Assembly (NCBI RefSeq): GCF_900220965.1
Contig: NZ_OBQC01000011.1
Location: forward strand, 62,001-126,000
Direction: 5' to 3'
Length of the DNA stretch: 64,000 nt
Source: Ureibacillus acetophenoni
GTDB lineage: Bacteria > Bacillota > Bacilli > Bacillales_A > Planococcaceae
The notes under the pieces were generated by a model. It did no database searches and had not been told where the DNA came from. It saw only the letters and a list, made by a program, of their open reading frames with translations. Of this stretch, positions 11,499 to 18,776 are shown piece by piece (within the stretch, counting starts at the first letter, position 1; every line of letters starts with the position of its first letter). The position numbers and the translations under genes were made by a program.

Positions 11499-12254
11499 TT
11501 ACTCAGTAAAAGTGTAAATTGCTTCTTTTAAGAACTCAGTAGCGCCGTCTCCACATTTTTCGTAGTAAGCTTTAAAGCGTTCATCGGCTACATACATATC
11601 TGCAAGGCCTCTATGCGCTTCCTTTGAATAAGAAGGCCAAGTAAACGTTAGCCACTGTTTATGTTTTAAAGCTACTTCTTGTGCAATTGTAGATGTGGGA
11701 TCGCCAGTTTCTAGAGCCTTTGTTAGAAGTTCTAAAACTTCTTCTCCTAACTTTACCATTACATCATATTTTTCTTGGGACATATTTTTGAATATTTTGT
11801 TCGACTCTTCAACTGTTTTCTCACCGTATTTTTCTCGAATTTCCTCACCATATTTTTCTTCATTCTCAGAAATTAACTTATCTTTAAATGCCTCGAATTT
11901 TTGCTCATTTGACATAAGAATTTCTCCTTTCTCGTGGGCGATGGTATTCTCCACCGTACTAATTAATTTTTCCAGTCGGGATTTTTTTTCTTCAAGTTTA
12001 CTTAAATGTGTTTGTAATGCTTTTGTTTTATCGAATTCAGGATTGTTCATAATAGAAATAATAGTGTCTAATTCAACATCAAGCTCTCTAAAAAACAATA
12101 TTTGTTGAAGTCGATCAACTTCTATTTGTCCATAGATTCTGTATCCTGAACTATTAATTCTTGCTGGTTTGAGTAGGTTGATTTCATCATAATAGCGTAA
12201 TGTTCGCGCGCTAACATTTGCTAATTTGGCAAGCTTGCTAATTGTATATTCCAT
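11499..12254 (-). CDS. MerR family regulator with TipAS drug-binding domain (Mta-like)
   Basis: A 251-residue transcription activator. Residues 1-70 are a MerR winged helix (YTISKLAKLANVSARTLRYYDE, quoted in part), residues about 75-120 a coiled-coil dimerisation helix, and residues about 125-250 a TipAS domain (KYGEKTVEES, then HRGLADMYVADERFKAYYEK), which in TipA and Mta binds hydrophobic antibiotics. ATG 12254 is chosen because an AGGAGGGA site precedes it; nine extra codons upstream have none. A TTGACC-19 bp-TATGAT promoter just upstream has the long spacer that MerR proteins act on, so autoactivation is likely. No drug exporter is adjacent, so the target beyond itself is unknown. Confidence 0.87.
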   Translation of the reverse strand: MEYTISKLAKLANVSARTLRYYDEINLLKPARINSSGYRIYGQIEVDRLQQILFFRELDVELDTIISIMNNPEFDKTKALQTHLSKLEEKKSRLEKLISTVENTIAHEKGEILMSNEQKFEAFKDKLISENEEKYGEEIREKYGEKTVEESNKIFKNMSQEKYDVMVKLGEEVLELLTKALETGDPTSTIAQEVALKHKQWLTFTWPSYSKEAHRGLADMYVADERFKAYYEKCGDGATEFLKEAIYTFTE

Positions 12255-12276
12255 GTTTAATCCCTCCTGTATTTCA

Positions 12277-12307
12277 ATCATATAGGTTAACGTAACGTGA
12301 AGGTCAA
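12277..12307 (-). promoter_or_regulatory. MerR-type promoter with 19-bp spacer
   Basis: On the minus strand TTGACC (12302-12307) and TATGAT (12277-12282) are separated by exactly 19 bp. The spacer holds an imperfect inverted repeat centred on ACGT..ACGT. Such over-long spacers are the hallmark of promoters twisted into activity by MerR family proteins. The start point would fall just before the ribosome binding site at 12261-12268. Confidence 0.7.
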
Positions 12308-12443
12308 TAACTTATAACTGAAAAAATTATTTGAGTTTGGATTACGATGTGTTGGAATTATTTCACTAGTAACTTAAATGAAATTATCTTAAGATGGAGA
12401 ATGTATGAAAATATGCGGGGTTTCCCGTGCGAGGTTATGAAAA

Positions 12444-13076
12444 ATGGAGCAAAAAAAGGTACAAGTTAGACAGCCGAAATATGCAAAGATTGCAGCTGAT
12501 ATTGCATCAAAGATTGTAGAAAAAAAATATGTTGTTGGTGAAAAAATTTATGCTAGATCTTCTCTAGCAAGCCAATATGGTGTTTCATCCGAAACAGCTA
12601 GAAGGGCAATTGCGGTCTTACAAGACTTGGAAATTGTAGAGGCAACAAAAGGTAGTGGGGTTATGATAAAATCCTACGAAAAGGCAGCTCAATTTGTTCA
12701 ACAATTTCTAGATGTACAATCAGTCCATCAAATTCAGTTAGAAGTGTTAGAAAGTTTGAAACGCCAAAGAGAGGAACTAAACTATTTACAGGAGATTACT
12801 GACCGATTAGTTAATCGAACTGAAAGATTTAGGTCCGTAAATCCCTTTGTCCCTTTTCAAATCGAAGTTTTAGAACAATCACCATATATTTTTCGTTCAA
12901 TTGGAGAAATCAACTTTTGGCAAAATACATCAGCTACAATCGTGGGTATAAAAAGAGGGCAAGACTTATTTGTATCACCTGGACCGTATATTACAATTGA
13001 ACCAAATGACATTATTTATTTCATAGGAAATGACGAAAGTTTAGAACGTGTTGAGAAATTTTTATATTCATATTAG
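12444..13076 (+). CDS. GntR family regulator with C-terminal RCK_C (TrkA_C) domain, BusR-like
   Basis: A 210-residue DNA-binding protein. Residues about 12-76 form a GntR winged helix (LASQYGVSSETARRAIAVLQ), residues about 88-125 a coiled coil, and residues about 136-210 an RCK_C domain (FVSPGPYITIEPNDIIYFIG). This architecture is that of BusR, which in streptococci and lactococci binds c-di-AMP through RCK_C and represses the glycine betaine transporter BusA/OpuA. The gene sits directly upstream of opuAA-opuAB-opuAC, separated by its own terminator and the opuA promoter, which strongly suggests it controls that operon. Start ATG 12444 follows GAGG by 9 nt. Confidence 0.85.
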   Translation: MEQKKVQVRQPKYAKIAADIASKIVEKKYVVGEKIYARSSLASQYGVSSETARRAIAVLQDLEIVEATKGSGVMIKSYEKAAQFVQQFLDVQSVHQIQLEVLESLKRQREELNYLQEITDRLVNRTERFRSVNPFVPFQIEVLEQSPYIFRSIGEINFWQNTSATIVGIKRGQDLFVSPGPYITIEPNDIIYFIGNDESLERVEKFLYSY

Positions 13077-13078
13077 TG

Positions 13079-13120
13079 GGTCTGCGGATACTTTATATAA
13101 AGGTATTCGTAGACCTTTTT
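13079..13120 (+). terminator. Terminator of the BusR-like gene
   Basis: A 13-bp stem with G-U pairs (13079-13091 with 13103-13115) is followed by TTTTT. Confidence 0.75.
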
Positions 13121-13156
13121 CTATTGTTTTGTAAGGTAGTTTACAAGATTGGAAGA

Positions 13157-13196
13157 TTGACACAAGTAACAACTCTTTGTTAACATTAGGTTGTCA
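13157..13196 (+). promoter_or_regulatory. opuA promoter with overlapping inverted repeats (candidate BusR operator)
   Basis: TTGACA (13157-13162) and TAACAT (13181-13186, with TG at 13178-13179) are separated by 18 bp. A perfect inverted repeat TAACAA-CTCT-TTGTTA (13167-13182) fills the spacer, and TGACA (13158-13162) faces TGTCA (13192-13196). Such placement suits a repressor. The link to the BusR-like protein is inference from position. Confidence 0.5.
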
Positions 13197-13244
13197 CTTA
13201 GATAATTGGGAAATACTTACTAATTGGATGGAGAGGAGAATGAT

Positions 13245-14459
13245 ATGGATAAGATAAAGATTGAAAATGTGTCTAAAATATTTGGTAGCGGTAGGCATAT
13301 TAATCAAGCATTAAAGCTAGTCGAGCAGAATAAAAGCAAGACTGAAATATTGAAACAAACGGGTGCAACAATTGGTGTATACAATGCCAATTTTACCGTT
13401 AAAGAAGGCGAAGTCTTTGTTATTATGGGACTTTCAGGTAGTGGTAAATCTACATTAGTTCGTTTATTAAACCGCCTCATTGAACCCACGAGTGGAAACA
13501 TCTATATAGATGGCGAAAATATCTCCAAAATGAACAAACAACAGCTCATTAAAGTCCGTAGGGAGAAAATGAGTATGGTGTTTCAAAACTTCGGCTTATT
13601 CCCACAAAGAACTGTACTAGCAAATACAGAATATGGTTTAGAAATTCGCGGAATTTCAAAAGAAGAAAGACGATTGAAAGCAGAAAAGGCTTTAGATAAT
13701 GCGGGGTTATTACCATATAAAGACCAATATCCAAGCCAATTATCAGGTGGTATGCAACAACGTGTTGGCTTAGCAAGAGCATTAGCAAATGACCCTGACA
13801 TCCTGCTAATGGATGAAGCTTTTTCTGCGCTCGATCCTTTAATCCGTAAAGATATGCAAGACGAGTTACTCGATTTGCAACAAAAAATGAAAAAGACAAT
13901 TATCTTTATTACACATGACTTAAATGAGGCGTTACGTATTGGTGACCGGATTGCGTTAATGAAAGATGGCGAAATTATTCAAATTGGTACAGGGGAAGAA
14001 ATATTAACGAACCCTGCTAACGATTATGTTAGATCATTCTTGGAAGATGTTGACCGTTCGAAAGTTCTAACAGTTGAAAATGCAATGATTCGTCCGATTT
14101 CAATAAATATTGATATTGATGGCCCTAAAGTGGCTCTACAAACAATGCGAGAAGAGGAAGTAAGTGTAGTTCTTGCTGTCAATAAAATGAGAGAGTTTAA
14201 AGGTTATATAACTGCAGATGATGCATTAGAAGCTTCAAAACGTGGTGAAAGTAATCTATCAAACTATTTAAGAACAGATATGCCAACTGTTCAGCCAGAT
14301 ACGTTCATTCAAGATGTGCTAAGTGTAATTTCTGATTCGAAAACACCACTAGCAGTCGTACGTGAACAAAAATTAGTTGGCGTTTTAATTAGAGGCGTTG
14401 TTATTGAAACCCTCTCTACAAGTAATGAGGGGGTGACAGAACATGAGTCAGTTTCTTGA
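13245..14459 (+). CDS. opuAA: Glycine betaine ABC transporter ATPase OpuAA
   Basis: A 404-residue ATPase of the osmoprotectant importer OpuA. Walker A is GLSGSGKST, the signature [15 protein letters not shown], Walker [14 protein letters not shown]. The N-terminal extension before the ABC domain ([24 protein letters not shown], quoted in part as [13 protein letters not shown]) is specific to the OpuA/ProV group. Residues about 280-400 form two CBS motifs, used in relatives to sense ionic strength or c-di-AMP. ATG 13245 is chosen for its AGGAG 6 nt upstream. The 3' end overlaps opuAB by 17 nt. Confidence 0.94.
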
Positions 14460-15294
14460 TTTTGTACCGACTATTCCTATAGCTAAATCTGTCGAATGGT
14501 TCATGGATCTGTTAACAAGTAACCTTGCACCTCTTTTTGATTCGATTCAAAAAGGCGGAAAATATGCAATGGAATCTGTTACAGATTTACTAATTTTAAT
14601 ACCCCCAATTCTTTTTATATTAATAATAGGGGTAATCGCATTTTTCGCTACAAAAAGGAAGTTTGGTTTAGCAGTATTTTCAATCGTTGGTCTATTTTTA
14701 ATTTATAACCAAGGACTTTGGGAAGAACTAATGAACACAATCACTCTTGTTATATTTGCGAGTTTGATTGCAATTATTATTGGTGTTCCTTTAGGAATAT
14801 TAATGTCAAAAAACTCAGTTGCAGAAGCAATTATTAAGCCAGTATTAGACTTTATGCAAACAATGCCTGGTTTTGTTTACTTAATACCAGCAGTTGCATT
14901 CTTCGGAATAGGTGTAGTTCCAGGTGTATTTGCCTCAGTTATTTTCGCTCTTCCACCAACAGTTCGCTTTACAAATTTAGGTATTAGACAAGTGCCGAAA
15001 GAATTAGTAGAAGCATCTGAATCATATGGAAGTACGGGTTGGCAAAAGCTCACTAAGGTTGAATTGCCTCTAGCAAAATCTACAATAATGGCGGGTATTA
15101 ACCAAACTGTATTACTATCATTATCAATGGTTGTAATAGCATCTATGATTGGTGCGCCAGGATTAGGAAGAGATGTATTATCTGCATTACAAAGAGCTCA
15201 AGTTGGTAATGGCTTTGTAGCCGGTATCAGTTTAGTAATATTGGCTATTATATTTGACCGTTTAACTCAAAGTTTCAATAAAAAGAAACAATAG
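14443..15294 (+). CDS. opuAB: Glycine betaine ABC transporter permease OpuAB
   Basis: A 283-residue membrane protein, the same length as B. subtilis OpuAB. It has an N-terminal amphipathic region ([18 protein letters not shown]), then about seven membrane helices with the BPD_transp_1 core. The EAA loop ([23 protein letters not shown], quoted as [15 protein letters not shown]) lies near residue 195. It forms the translocation pore as a homodimer with OpuAA. Translation is coupled to opuAA by the overlap. It ends 82 nt before the first opuAC; no terminator is seen between them. Confidence 0.94.
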
Positions 15295-15376
15295 AATGTG
15301 AAATTTTAATGTAATTAAAAATTCAAATGAGTAGTCTTTACCGAGGCTGTTTGTTTAGACAAAGGGAGACGAAAAA

Positions 15377-16294
15377 ATGAAGAGTTTAAAGAAGAAGTTA
15401 GGAATAACTGCAATATTATCCTTTACTCTACTATTAGCCGCGTGTGGCAGTAGTGAAGAAGGTTCAAATGGAAGTGGGCAAGAAACAGCATCAGATAGTT
15501 TAGGTGAAGCATTAGATTATACAATTACTGGTATTGAACCGGGAGCAGGTATAACTCAACTAACACTAAATACTTTAGAAGAATATGAAAACTTAGAAGG
15601 TTGGACACTTCTAGAAAGTTCAACTGCAGGGATGATTGGTGCTTTAGATCAAGCTATTAAAAATGAGGAGCCGATTATCGTAACAGGTTGGAATCCACAC
15701 TGGAAGTTCTCTGCATACGATTTGAAATACTTGGAAGACCCTAAAGGAACATTAGGTGGGGCTGAAGATATTAATACAATTACAAGAAAAGGTTTGGAAG
15801 AAGACATGCCTGAAGCTTATACAATTCTCGATCGTTTCTACTGGGAACCAGAAGATATGGAGGCTGTAATGTATGCTGCTCAAGAAATACCTTTTGAAGA
15901 GGCTGCCCAAAATTGGATTGACGAAAATGCTGATAAAGTAAGCGAATGGACAGAAGGTGTAGAGAAGGTAGATGGAGTAGATATTGAACTAGTTATCACA
16001 CCTTGGGATACAGAACGTGCTTCTGGCCAAGTGATGAAAATTGTATTAGAACAACAAGGTTACAATGTAACTCTAACTCCAGTTGACCCAGCAATTATGT
16101 TCCAAGCAATCGCCACAGCTGAAGGCGATGCAAGTGTTGCACCGTGGTTGCCAAATACACATGGTTCTTTCTATGAAAAATATAAAGAAGATATTGTCGA
16201 TTTAGGTCCAAACTTAACAGGTACAAAAACAGGATTAGTTGTTCCTGCATACATGGACATTGATTCCATTGAGGACTTAATGCCGAAAAAATAA
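15377..16294 (+). CDS. opuAC: Glycine betaine-binding lipoprotein OpuAC, lobe order as in B. subtilis
   Basis: A 305-residue lipoprotein; the lipobox LAAC places the acylated cysteine at residue 23. The first half (residues about 46-195) starts YTITGIEPGAG and carries GWNPHW with W105; the second half (about 202-300) carries ITPWDTE with W210 and APWLPNTH with W257 and H262. These correspond to the aromatic cage and the histidine that hold the trimethylammonium and carboxylate of glycine betaine in OpuAC. The lobe order is that of B. subtilis OpuAC. A second binding protein with the reverse order follows. Start ATG 15377 after AAAGGGAG. Confidence 0.93.
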   Translation: MKSLKKKLGITAILSFTLLLAACGSSEEGSNGSGQETASDSLGEALDYTITGIEPGAGITQLTLNTLEEYENLEGWTLLESSTAGMIGALDQAIKNEEPIIVTGWNPHWKFSAYDLKYLEDPKGTLGGAEDINTITRKGLEEDMPEAYTILDRFYWEPEDMEAVMYAAQEIPFEEAAQNWIDENADKVSEWTEGVEKVDGVDIELVITPWDTERASGQVMKIVLEQQGYNVTLTPVDPAIMFQAIATAEGDASVAPWLPNTHGSFYEKYKEDIVDLGPNLTGTKTGLVVPAYMDIDSIEDLMPKK

Positions 16295-16372
16295 TTATTA
16301 TACTTTTGGTTTATACAAAATTAATACTTTTGTTTAAATATTAAAAGTTTGGGTGAAAGGGAGATAAATAGC

Positions 16373-17266
16373 ATGAAATTCAAAAAACTAAAGATGCTAG
16401 GTTTAACGCTTGGTTTAGGAGCGATGTTAGCTGCATGTGGATCAGATGATAGTACAACAACCAATAATGAAGAATCAAAAGCTGATACTGGATCAAAAGC
16501 GGTTAATTTAGCGTATGTAGAATGGGATAGTGAAATTGCATCAACACATGTTGTAGGAAAAGTTTTAGAAGACTTAGGTTATGATGTTACACTAACTCCT
16601 TTAGATAATGCAATTATGTGGGAAGCAGTATCAACTGGAGAAGCAGATGCAATGGTAGCTGGATGGTTACCAGGAACTCATGCCGCACAATATGAAAGAT
16701 ATAAAGATGGTTTAGTAGAATTAGGAGAAAACCTATCAGGTGCTAAAATTGGATTAGTTGTTCCAACTTATATGGAAGCTAATTCTATCGCTGACTTATC
16801 AGGAGAAGCAGACATGAAAATTACAGGTATCGAAGCAGGTGCGGGAGTAATGGCTGCTACTGAAAATGCAATTGCGGAATATGCAAATTTAAATGGCTGG
16901 GAACTTGTACCTTCATCTTCTGGAGCAATGACAGTAGCTTTAGATCAGGCGATTAAAAGTGAAGAAGAAATTATTGTTACAGGCTGGTCACCACACTGGA
17001 AGTTTGCTGCATATGACTTGAAATATTTAGAGGATCCTCAAGGTGTTTATGGTGGGGAAGAAACTATTAACACATTTGCTCGTCAAGGCTTAGAAGAAGA
17101 TTTACCGGAAGCATTTAAAGTGATTGACGCCTTCCACTGGACGAGTGCAGATATGGAAGAGGTAATGCTTGATATTAATTCGGGAACGTCACCTGAAGAT
17201 GCTGCTGCTAAATGGGTTGAAGCTCACCCAGACAAAGTTGCTGAATGGACGAAAGATGTAGAGTAA
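16373..17266 (+). CDS. opuAC: Second glycine betaine-binding lipoprotein, lobe-swapped (circularly permuted) relative of OpuAC
   Basis: A 297-residue lipoprotein with lipobox LAAC, cysteine at residue 22. The lobes are in reverse order compared with the gene before it: residues about 43-140 (NLAYVEWDSEIAS, W51; AGWLPGTH, W98 and H103) equal the second half of the upstream protein, and residues about 148-297 (MKITGIEAGAG, then GWSPHW with W205) equal its first half. All cage residues are kept, so it should bind betaine or a related compound. ATG 16373 follows AAGGGAG by 9 nt. The gene closes the opuA operon before a strong terminator. Confidence 0.9.
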   Translation: MKFKKLKMLGLTLGLGAMLAACGSDDSTTTNNEESKADTGSKAVNLAYVEWDSEIASTHVVGKVLEDLGYDVTLTPLDNAIMWEAVSTGEADAMVAGWLPGTHAAQYERYKDGLVELGENLSGAKIGLVVPTYMEANSIADLSGEADMKITGIEAGAGVMAATENAIAEYANLNGWELVPSSSGAMTVALDQAIKSEEEIIVTGWSPHWKFAAYDLKYLEDPQGVYGGEETINTFARQGLEEDLPEAFKVIDAFHWTSADMEEVMLDINSGTSPEDAAAKWVEAHPDKVAEWTKDVE

Positions 17267-17285
17267 TAAAATAAGCTCCTTAATG

Positions 17286-17325
17286 AAAAACCGATTTGTC
17301 ACTTAATTGTGACAAATCGGTTTTT
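17286..17325. terminator. Bidirectional terminator of the opuA operon
   Basis: A perfect 17-bp stem (17286-17302 with 17309-17325, loop TTAATT) carries A and T runs at both ends, serving opuA and the convergent gene at 17326. Confidence 0.9.
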
Positions 17326-17772
17326 TTATTTAGAAATATCATATCCAACAACTGACCATATTCCGGTTTCATCTTGTCGAATAAGTCTTTTTAAATAGAC
17401 CATATTAATATTCGTATCTGAATCGTCAACTTGAACAATTGCTGATTCGTTGTTGCTAGAGATTAGCTTTAAATTTTCATACTCAATAGGAAAATCTCCA
17501 ACTATACCTTCAGGAAATAAATGCAAACTGGTAAAAACTTGAGCTGTAAATAGTGGATCAAGTCTCCATGGGGAATGACCTTCATCCACACTTTTTTGAG
17601 TTTGTTTATCTAGTTCTAGGTCAACATTTACCTCAACTTGCGGTTTCAATTCATATTCACTAGCTTGAACTGGGAAAATAATATGTTCAAAACCTACAAC
17701 GGTCTCTAGTTCGAAAGTTAGCTCATTCGATTCAAGGTAAGCAGGGATAGAATATTCATTGATAATGTCCAT
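17326..17772 (-). CDS. Conserved hypothetical protein
   Basis: A 148-residue acidic protein without signal peptide or membrane helix. I do not recognise the family. It seems to be built mainly of beta strands, and its C-terminal MVYLKRLIRQDETGIWSVVGYDISK region (quoted in part) looks like the end of a compact alpha/beta fold. A GGAGG lies 7 nt before the ATG on the minus strand, which together with codon use supports a real gene. It is monocistronic and convergent with opuA. No function is proposed. Confidence 0.7.
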   Translation of the reverse strand: MDIINEYSIPAYLESNELTFELETVVGFEHIIFPVQASEYELKPQVEVNVDLELDKQTQKSVDEGHSPWRLDPLFTAQVFTSLHLFPEGIVGDFPIEYENLKLISSNNESAIVQVDDSDTNINMVYLKRLIRQDETGIWSVVGYDISK

Positions 17773-17951
17773 AGTGAGACCTCCAAAATTTCAGATGTAT
17801 TAGGACCTCAATATTATTATTTACAAAAATTTATAAATTATTAACTTTTTTAAATTAAACTTCTATTTAATGTTTACTTAGTAGTACCAAATAAGTTCAC
17901 TCTTGCATAAGTTACAGTTAGTTATAATTTGAGGAGAGTGAGCATAGACTT

Positions 17952-18776
17952 ATGTTTTATCATGTGAAAGAATTGCAGTATCATGCTAAACCGGAAAGAC
18001 CAGATCCGGTTTTTGCAAGGATGCTTCAAGAAGTTATAGGTGGACAATGGGGTGAAATATCTGTTGCTATGCAGTATTTATTCCAAGGGTGGAATGTGCG
18101 CGGTAACGAGAAATATAGGGATTTACTTTTAGATACTGGTACAGAAGAGCTAGGACATATTGAAATGCTTGCAACAATGGTTGCAAGACTGCTTGAAGGT
18201 GCACCGGTACCAACGCTAGAAGAAGCAGCAAAAGACCCTGTCATAAACGCAATTCTTGGTGGTATGAACCCACAACACATTATTGTTTCAGGTTTAGGTG
18301 CAATGCCATCTGATAGTAACGGTAGAAGATGGACAGCCGATTATATTATTGCTAGTGGAAACTTACTAGCTGATTTCCGCATGAACTTAACAGCAGAATC
18401 TCAAGGTCGATTACAAGTAGCTAGATTATATGAAATGACAGACGACCGTGGTGTTAAGGATATGCTTGCTTGGTTATTAGCTCGTGATACAATGCACCAA
18501 AATCAATGGTATGCAGCAATTAAAGAATTAGAAGAAAAAGAAAATATTGTTGTACCAAGCACTTTCCCTCGTCAACTTGAGCATCGTGAAGTATCGCATG
18601 TATTATTTAATAATTCTGCAGGTAATCAAAGTGCACATGGTAGATGGGCACATGGGCCAAGTATGGATGGTGAAGGAGTATTTAAATATGTAGAAAAACC
18701 AGTTCCATTTGCTCCAAAACCAAAATTAAATCCTGCTCCACCAAATATTCATAATACTCCACCTGAGGATTGTTAA
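17952..18776 (+). CDS. Manganese catalase (YdbD-like)
   Basis: A 274-residue di-manganese catalase that removes hydrogen peroxide in the cytoplasm. The ferritin-like four-helix core carries the metal ligands: E in GEISVAMQYLFQ, E and H in TEELGHIEML (residues about 65-72), E in NLTAESQGRLQVARLYE and H in ARDTMHQNQW. The proline-rich tail after residue 240 is usual for the non-haem catalase family. Its length agrees with B. subtilis YdbD and is longer than the spore-coat form CotJC. The GAGGAG is 15 nt from ATG, longer than usual, and no better start codon is available. Confidence 0.92.
   Translation: MFYHVKELQYHAKPERPDPVFARMLQEVIGGQWGEISVAMQYLFQGWNVRGNEKYRDLLLDTGTEELGHIEMLATMVARLLEGAPVPTLEEAAKDPVINAILGGMNPQHIIVSGLGAMPSDSNGRRWTADYIIASGNLLADFRMNLTAESQGRLQVARLYEMTDDRGVKDMLAWLLARDTMHQNQWYAAIKELEEKENIVVPSTFPRQLEHREVSHVLFNNSAGNQSAHGRWAHGPSMDGEGVFKYVEKPVPFAPKPKLNPAPPNIHNTPPEDC

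Follow-up and report, generated by a model that had tools for sequence, protein, structure and literature searches.

Why should a single glycine-betaine importer be followed by two receptor genes whose lobes run in opposite order, and how did the two come to stand side by side? The stretch of Ureibacillus acetophenoni DNA analyzed here (the window, 64 kb) contains a complete glycine-betaine importer locus consisting of a regulator, opuAA, opuAB and two receptor genes, and it poses both questions. Our reading, to which we give a probability of about two in three, is that the two betaine receptors would serve one importer, probably repressed by BusR, and that they are ancient sister paralogues, alpha with the lobe order T-W and beta with the order W-T, set apart by circular permutation.

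Organization and Predicted Control of the Locus

All features described below lie on the + strand. The BusR-like regulator combines a GntR-type winged helix with an RCK_C/TrkA_C domain (12444-13076; Pfam PF00392 and PF02080, above cut-off) and its gene is closed by a terminator-like hairpin at 13078-13116 (folding z-score -7.19 over 13072-13125). A sigma-70-type promoter for opuAA, TTGACA - 18 - TAACAT, is predicted at 13157-13186. It is the top-scoring promoter-like site in 12200-18000, an interval in which the number of such sites is not above chance, and it is kept upstream of opuAA in relatives. Overlapping this promoter is a BusR-like operator, AGTAAC - 22 bp - GTCACT (13165-13198), a pattern matched once in the 64 kb against an expectation of 0.01. 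As read by eye from 11 aligned upstream regions, the left half-site GTRAC is present in 10 and the right half-site GTYAC in 7.

BusR is described as recognizing a bipartite GAC motif with 22-bp spacing and as being under c-di-AMP control (PMC8517857, excerpt). The window operon has an adjoining regulator with GntR and RCK_C domains and a 22-bp-spaced bipartite operator at its promoter, and a BusR homologue adjoins opuA in all 24 of the other genomes of the genus. Transcription of the importer is probably repressed by this BusR in a c-di-AMP-responsive manner.

The ATPase gene opuAA (13245-14459; PF00005 and, for its CBS domain, PF00571; NCBIfam proV TIGR01186 above cut-off) and the permease gene opuAB (14443-15294; PF00528) are followed by two lipoprotein genes. 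Sequence and structure matches together with the tree assign gene 1 (15377-16294) to OpuAC paralogue alpha and gene 2 (16373-17266) to paralogue beta. A strong terminator-like hairpin after gene 2 (17286-17325; folding z-score -8.84 over 17275-17335) would mark the end of the unit; it has no entry in the consensus terminator scan. Neither the stretch ahead of gene 1 nor the one separating the two receptor genes folds better than its shuffled counterparts. From the promoter and operator, the strong terminator past gene 2 and the lack of a significant hairpin between the receptors, we infer that opuAA to gene 2 form one transcription unit. The idea, put forward in the preliminary description of this DNA, that one OpuAA-OpuAB pair is offered two receptors is supported, with all these genes in a single predicted unit. 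The stem of the last hairpin (TGTCAC/GTGACA) resembles the operator half-sites, probably by chance.

Lobe Order of the Two Receptors

Sequence comparison delimits the same two lobes in both proteins. Gene 1 (305 aa) has the T lobe first (residues 45-196, TGIEPGAG ... GWNPHW; 15509-15964) and the W lobe second (residues 201-303, TPWDTE ... APWLPNTH; 15977-16285). Gene 2 (297 aa) has the W lobe (VEWDSE ... AGWLPGTH; 16493-16804) before the T lobe (TGIEAGAG ... GWSPHW; 16805-17263). Its residues are numbered from the likely start, ATG 16373; the start given in the list of open reading frames, TTG 16349, is unlikely. Like lobes of the two genes share 57% (T) and 53% (W) identity, against 26% between T and W.

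Gene 1 is collinear with Bacillus subtilis OpuAC (2b4l) over a single stretch (41-301) and matches Lactococcus lactis OpuAC (3l6g) in two crossed stretches. Gene 2 shows the reverse, being collinear with the L. lactis protein (50-302) and crossed against that of B. subtilis. The AlphaFold2 models (mean pLDDT 86.1 for gene 1 and 86.7 for gene 2) behave in the same way in Foldseek: the gene 1 model aligns with B. subtilis OpuAC over 263 columns (TM 0.82) and with L. lactis OpuAC over about 157, and the gene 2 model aligns with L. lactis OpuAC over 251 columns (TM 0.81). The two genes carry the same lobes in opposite order, beyond chance. The reading frames and both lobe orders had been described correctly at the outset, as sequence search and AlphaFold2/Foldseek confirm, and the permutation then proposed between the neighbors is borne out by lobe alignment and structure prediction, two of the checks that had been suggested. 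The gene 2 model can also be aligned end to end with ProX, ChoX and OpuBC, which makes W-T the common arrangement in compatible-solute receptors and T-W the exceptional one.

Cage Residues and Function

The cage residues named earlier hold for both proteins (W105, W210, W257 and H262 in gene 1; W205, W51, W98 and H103 in gene 2). The three tryptophans are conserved in 103/103 receptor rows and the histidine in 90/103. Both genes score far above the curated cut-off of 21.2 bits for the OpuAC family PF04069, gene 1 with 201.9 bits in two stretches and gene 2 with 221.3 bits in one. By order, gene 1 is of the B. subtilis type (T before W) and not of the L. lactis type (W before T), and gene 2 is of the L. 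lactis type and not of the B. subtilis type. Gene 2 is a separate reading frame with its own leader and lipobox, and is not fused to OpuAB.

The presence of two lipoproteins with an intact cage beside a single ATPase-permease pair suggests an importer with two receptors. It is most likely that both betaine receptors serve the same OpuAA-OpuAB importer, and glycine betaine is presumably the unchanged ligand of both. Seven well-conserved positions (at least 85% in each group) distinguish alpha from W-T beta, some of them adjacent in sequence to cage residues (T208-P209 in gene 1 versus V49-E50 in gene 2); F242 versus W83 is a further difference. Given such differences, it is possible that alpha and beta diverge in affinity or ligand range.

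Two Ancient Paralogues

Of 166 receptor rows, 153 remained after identical ones had been removed. In the 147-row tree, for which lobes were set in a common order and six very divergent W-T rows (from loci L072, L086, L089, L090 and L091) were excluded, both genes fall inside one OpuAC subclade of 110 rows (support 97). Alpha, with gene 1, comprises 42 rows that are T-W without exception (42/42; support 99). Beta, with gene 2, comprises 64 rows, 53 of them W-T and 11 T-W (support 97), and the subclade also holds four further T-W rows. When the lobes are treated separately, alpha is a single clade in each tree. W-T beta forms one clade with a single T-W intruder in the T-lobe tree; in the W-lobe tree, which has few columns, alpha sits inside beta and beta is not a clade, so that the W lobe is weak evidence. 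Such per-lobe trees had also been proposed as a check.

Outside the genus, the first gene of two-receptor operons is beta and the second alpha, whatever their lobe order. This holds for seven W-T/T-W loci, for one locus with a fused OpuAB and for three of four T-W/T-W loci, the fourth (Geomicrobium) being a duplication of its own. The alpha/beta split is common to loci of Virgibacillus, Oceanobacillus, Alkalibacillus, Amphibacillus and Enterococcus, which argues that the duplication was not local. We accept genes 1 and 2 as ancient sister paralogues whose duplication predates the genus. The tandem duplication first suggested thus stands insofar as the two are paralogues of one OpuAC subclade, but not as an event local to the operon or the genus.

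The same proposal had the copies exchange lobes afterwards. A recent tandem duplication within the window operon, followed by such an exchange, would fit two paralogues that adjoin each other. We nevertheless consider it very unlikely, because the split is shared by several genera and because, in both lobes, T-W beta genes have their closest matches in beta rather than in alpha. L113_4833, for example, is 75% (T) and 82% (W) identical to W-T beta, and 62% (T) and 67% (W) to alpha. Moreover, tandem partners show identities of just 47-65% (T) and 48-74% (W), Terribacillus being excluded because its two genes belong to two operons. Lobe exchange between tandem partners is rejected on the per-lobe comparison, and an old duplication with a change of order in one lineage is accepted in its place.

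Number and Direction of Order Changes

The careful 101-row receptor tree contains four order changes (5-95% range 4-4 over 200 bootstrap trees), although its bootstrap was unsettled (correlation 0.837) and the values are rough. A single order change in the family is rejected at p-AU 0.00139 (101 rows), and again, at p-AU 0.00207, in a set of 67 rows from which the long-branched W-T rows L081 and L084 had been removed. The groups in the 101-row test and in the AU tests below were picked after the trees had been seen. Behind the 67-row set and the careful-tree and AU analyses are 69 hand-picked representatives, of which the set used 67; L190, a duplicate of L081, was removed. The earliest small lobe trees gave several changes with weak support and the 147-row tree gave five. 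With Paenibacillus-like and other fused receptors added, the number became four, and the root of the subclade moved in quick trees but not in the careful one. The receptor tree demonstrates at least four reconstructed switches of lobe order.

The skeleton of the careful tree shows W-T nested within T-W three times, as a Paenibacillus-like group, as a group consisting largely of OpuAB-fused receptors, and as W-T beta including gene 2. In a quick tree, L. lactis OpuAC lies in the subclade of gene 2, beside a Streptococcus receptor. For the alpha/beta subclade we favor T-W as the first order, though this is not proven. The exception is then not gene 1: the favored rooting would make the lineage of gene 2 the changed one.

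The opposite direction, with W-T ancestral throughout the subclade and the T-W order of alpha a derived, independent permutation, has several observations on its side. An AU test does not reject a single nested clade made up of its T-W members (p-AU 0.119); ProX, ChoX, OpuBC and the outgroup receptors all show the W-T order; W-T comes to lie at the base of the subclade in quick trees with added taxa; and in the main part of the transporter tree both halves have W-T operons at their base. In the careful tree, however, L156, L107, L167, alpha and T-W beta lie outside the W-T clade (whose support is only 78/64), and we consider a W-T ancestor unlikely.

The tree of OpuAA and OpuAB disagrees with the receptor tree. 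It gives six to seven changes of first-slot order, and a single clade of T-W beta operons is rejected on it (p-AU 2.5e-5); for this tree and for the AU tests of receptor nesting, selections of 44 and 39 rows were used. The receptor tree rejects the nesting of T-W first-slot genes with their transporter neighbors in Ornithinibacillus/Paucisalibacillus (p-AU 8.5e-10) and in Pseudogracilibacillus (p-AU 0.0046), whereas for Salibacterium versus Alkalibacillus the same nesting is not rejected (p-AU 0.384). Since groupings of the transporter tree are rejected by the receptor tree, we read first-slot receptors as having been replaced between operons in addition to true permutations. For Ornithinibacillus/Paucisalibacillus and Pseudogracilibacillus, synteny, conserved leaders and the transporter tree had spoken for recent flips in place, but the receptor tree rejects these and favors receptor replacement.

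Distribution of Opposite-Order Pairs

The genus, Ureibacillus/Lysinibacillus according to the named loci, is represented by 25 genomes including that of the window. All 25 carry busR-opuAA-opuAB with a W-T receptor. Among the matches listed, a T-W receptor adjoins the W-T gene in 14 of them, before it in six (L040, L044, L048, L058, L063 and the window) and after it in eight (L042, L043, L045, L050, L052, L054, L057 and L062); it is found elsewhere in three and is not among the listed matches in eight. Outside the genus, opposite-order pairs occur at eight of 80 named loci (the best 80 of at least 586 confirmed stretches, with a few genomes counted twice): three in Virgibacillus and one each in Oceanobacillus, Alkalibacillus, Amphibacillus, a record titled "Roseburia" and Enterococcus, where the W-T receptor is fused to OpuAB. 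The pair is hence not confined to the window genome.

Some individual records deserve comment. The operons of those titled Roseburia (L133) and Pelosinus (L123) group with Bacillaceae and Lysinibacillus, and the contigs are likely mislabelled or contaminated. In L057 (4838-5775, G019) and in L103, alpha is split over two frames near the N-terminus and may be broken. The genome of the window itself has a second tandem pair on contig C35 (L067, 6175-8124), in which both receptors are T-W and no OpuAB was found alongside; its second receptor is divergent, with Y in place of W109 of gene 1. A plasmid search returned only relatives below 60% identity.

One possibility is that a busR-opuA operon with a W-T receptor of its own acquired an unlinked T-W alpha gene by horizontal insertion, so that the tandem would have been assembled and not duplicated in place. 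The varying position of alpha within the genus, among the matches listed, would agree with this, as would the existence of solitary alpha genes and the receptor replacement found in other operons. In addition, identity between the window and its sister genome G010 is 94% for beta, 74% for alpha and 82% for OpuAB. On the other hand, the beta-then-alpha arrangement recurs in several genera, and assembly leaves the permutation itself unexplained. We regard it as a doubtful account, which can nonetheless hold for the genus alongside our main reading for the deeper history, so that the two probabilities overlap. As a separate observation, the comparison of window positions 14443-16294 with L048 5963-8011 (G010) would fit the replacement of an OpuAB-alpha block.

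Fused Arrays and a Possible Route to Permutation

For the older history, we return to ancient duplication followed by permutation in the beta lineage. In family f3, another family of the same class and, judging by one named relative, presumably Paenibacillus-like, OpuAB is fused to T-W-T-W in 11 of 118 genomes and to T-W-T-W-T-W in one. All genomes with fused arrays share one genus code (g43), within which copy number varies. Examples are L181 43-2640 (G066), L182 1168-3759 (G085) and L245/L246 (G199), the G199 array being the T-W-T-W-T-W one, in a frame of 1138 aa. Of the 88 matches listed in the same search, 33, as counted by eye, are separate W-T proteins aligning with the central W-T of the array (query about 200-470).

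Circular permutation by duplication and truncation requires an intermediate of this T-W-T-W kind. In the trees, the fused arrays cluster with further T-W receptors from family f3 and not with W-T ones, and are therefore examples of the route, not ancestors of the W-T receptors; within the alpha/beta subclade no fused intermediate was found. Beta genes have alike leaders in both orders and joints at the hinge between the lobes, which would fit an in-frame duplication behind a kept leader. In the simplest form of this route, the beta ancestor would have undergone an in-frame tandem duplication of both lobes, giving T-W-T-W, which would then have lost its first T and last W to become W-T. The breaks would fall at the inter-lobe hinge; fold and tryptophan cage are unchanged.

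As a rule, natural circular permutations are deduced from a pair of distant structures. In the present case, both orders occur among close relatives with lobes up to 75-82% identical, opposite-order paralogues are adjacent, and a related family contains tandem arrays, so that duplication and truncation as a route, and what it does to folding, docking and affinity, can be tested directly. We see even odds that OpuAC forms a natural hot spot for circular permutation, with a lobe order that would toggle repeatedly and even revert via living (T-W)2 and (T-W)3 arrays and with opposite-order paralogues kept together for one transporter. These findings bear on the opposite lobe order of the two well-known OpuAC structures, from B. 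subtilis and L. lactis, and lead one to ask what an osmotic-stress importer gains from a second receptor.

Comparison with Known Systems

Gene 1 resembles B. subtilis OpuAC (2b4l, 2b4m, 5nxx) in lobe order, in its cage and as a lipoprotein encoded after OpuAA-OpuAB. It differs in belonging to another subclade (alpha), in having a second receptor next to it and in standing behind BusR, and the identity between the two is 45-46%. Gene 2 resembles the receptor domain of L. lactis OpuA/BusAB (3l6g, 3l6h, 7ahd) in lobe order, subclade and BusR-linked operon type. Unlike that domain, with which it shares 54% identity, it is a free lipoprotein and not fused to OpuAB.

Permutation among betaine-binding proteins, 2b4l from B. 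subtilis included, was reported with CPSARST in 2008, and the available part of that report describes no tandem pair, count of repeated changes or fused array (PMC2395249). The words "permut," "swap" and "dislocation" are absent from the available text of the paper on L. lactis OpuAC (PMC2861598). Titles and abstract openings, with subscription journals mostly outside the search, mentioned no opposite-order OpuAC pair, repeated permutation or (T-W)n fusion. The L. lactis OpuA complex has two receptor domains (PMC11065425, excerpt). The window operon is similar in providing more than one receptor per transporter, but its two receptors are different and free. The (T-W)n fusions, compared with L. 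lactis OpuA, line up two or three receptor units one after another on each OpuAB. By family, we class the two genes of the window with the ordinary OpuAC receptors; their arrangement and history we regard as new.
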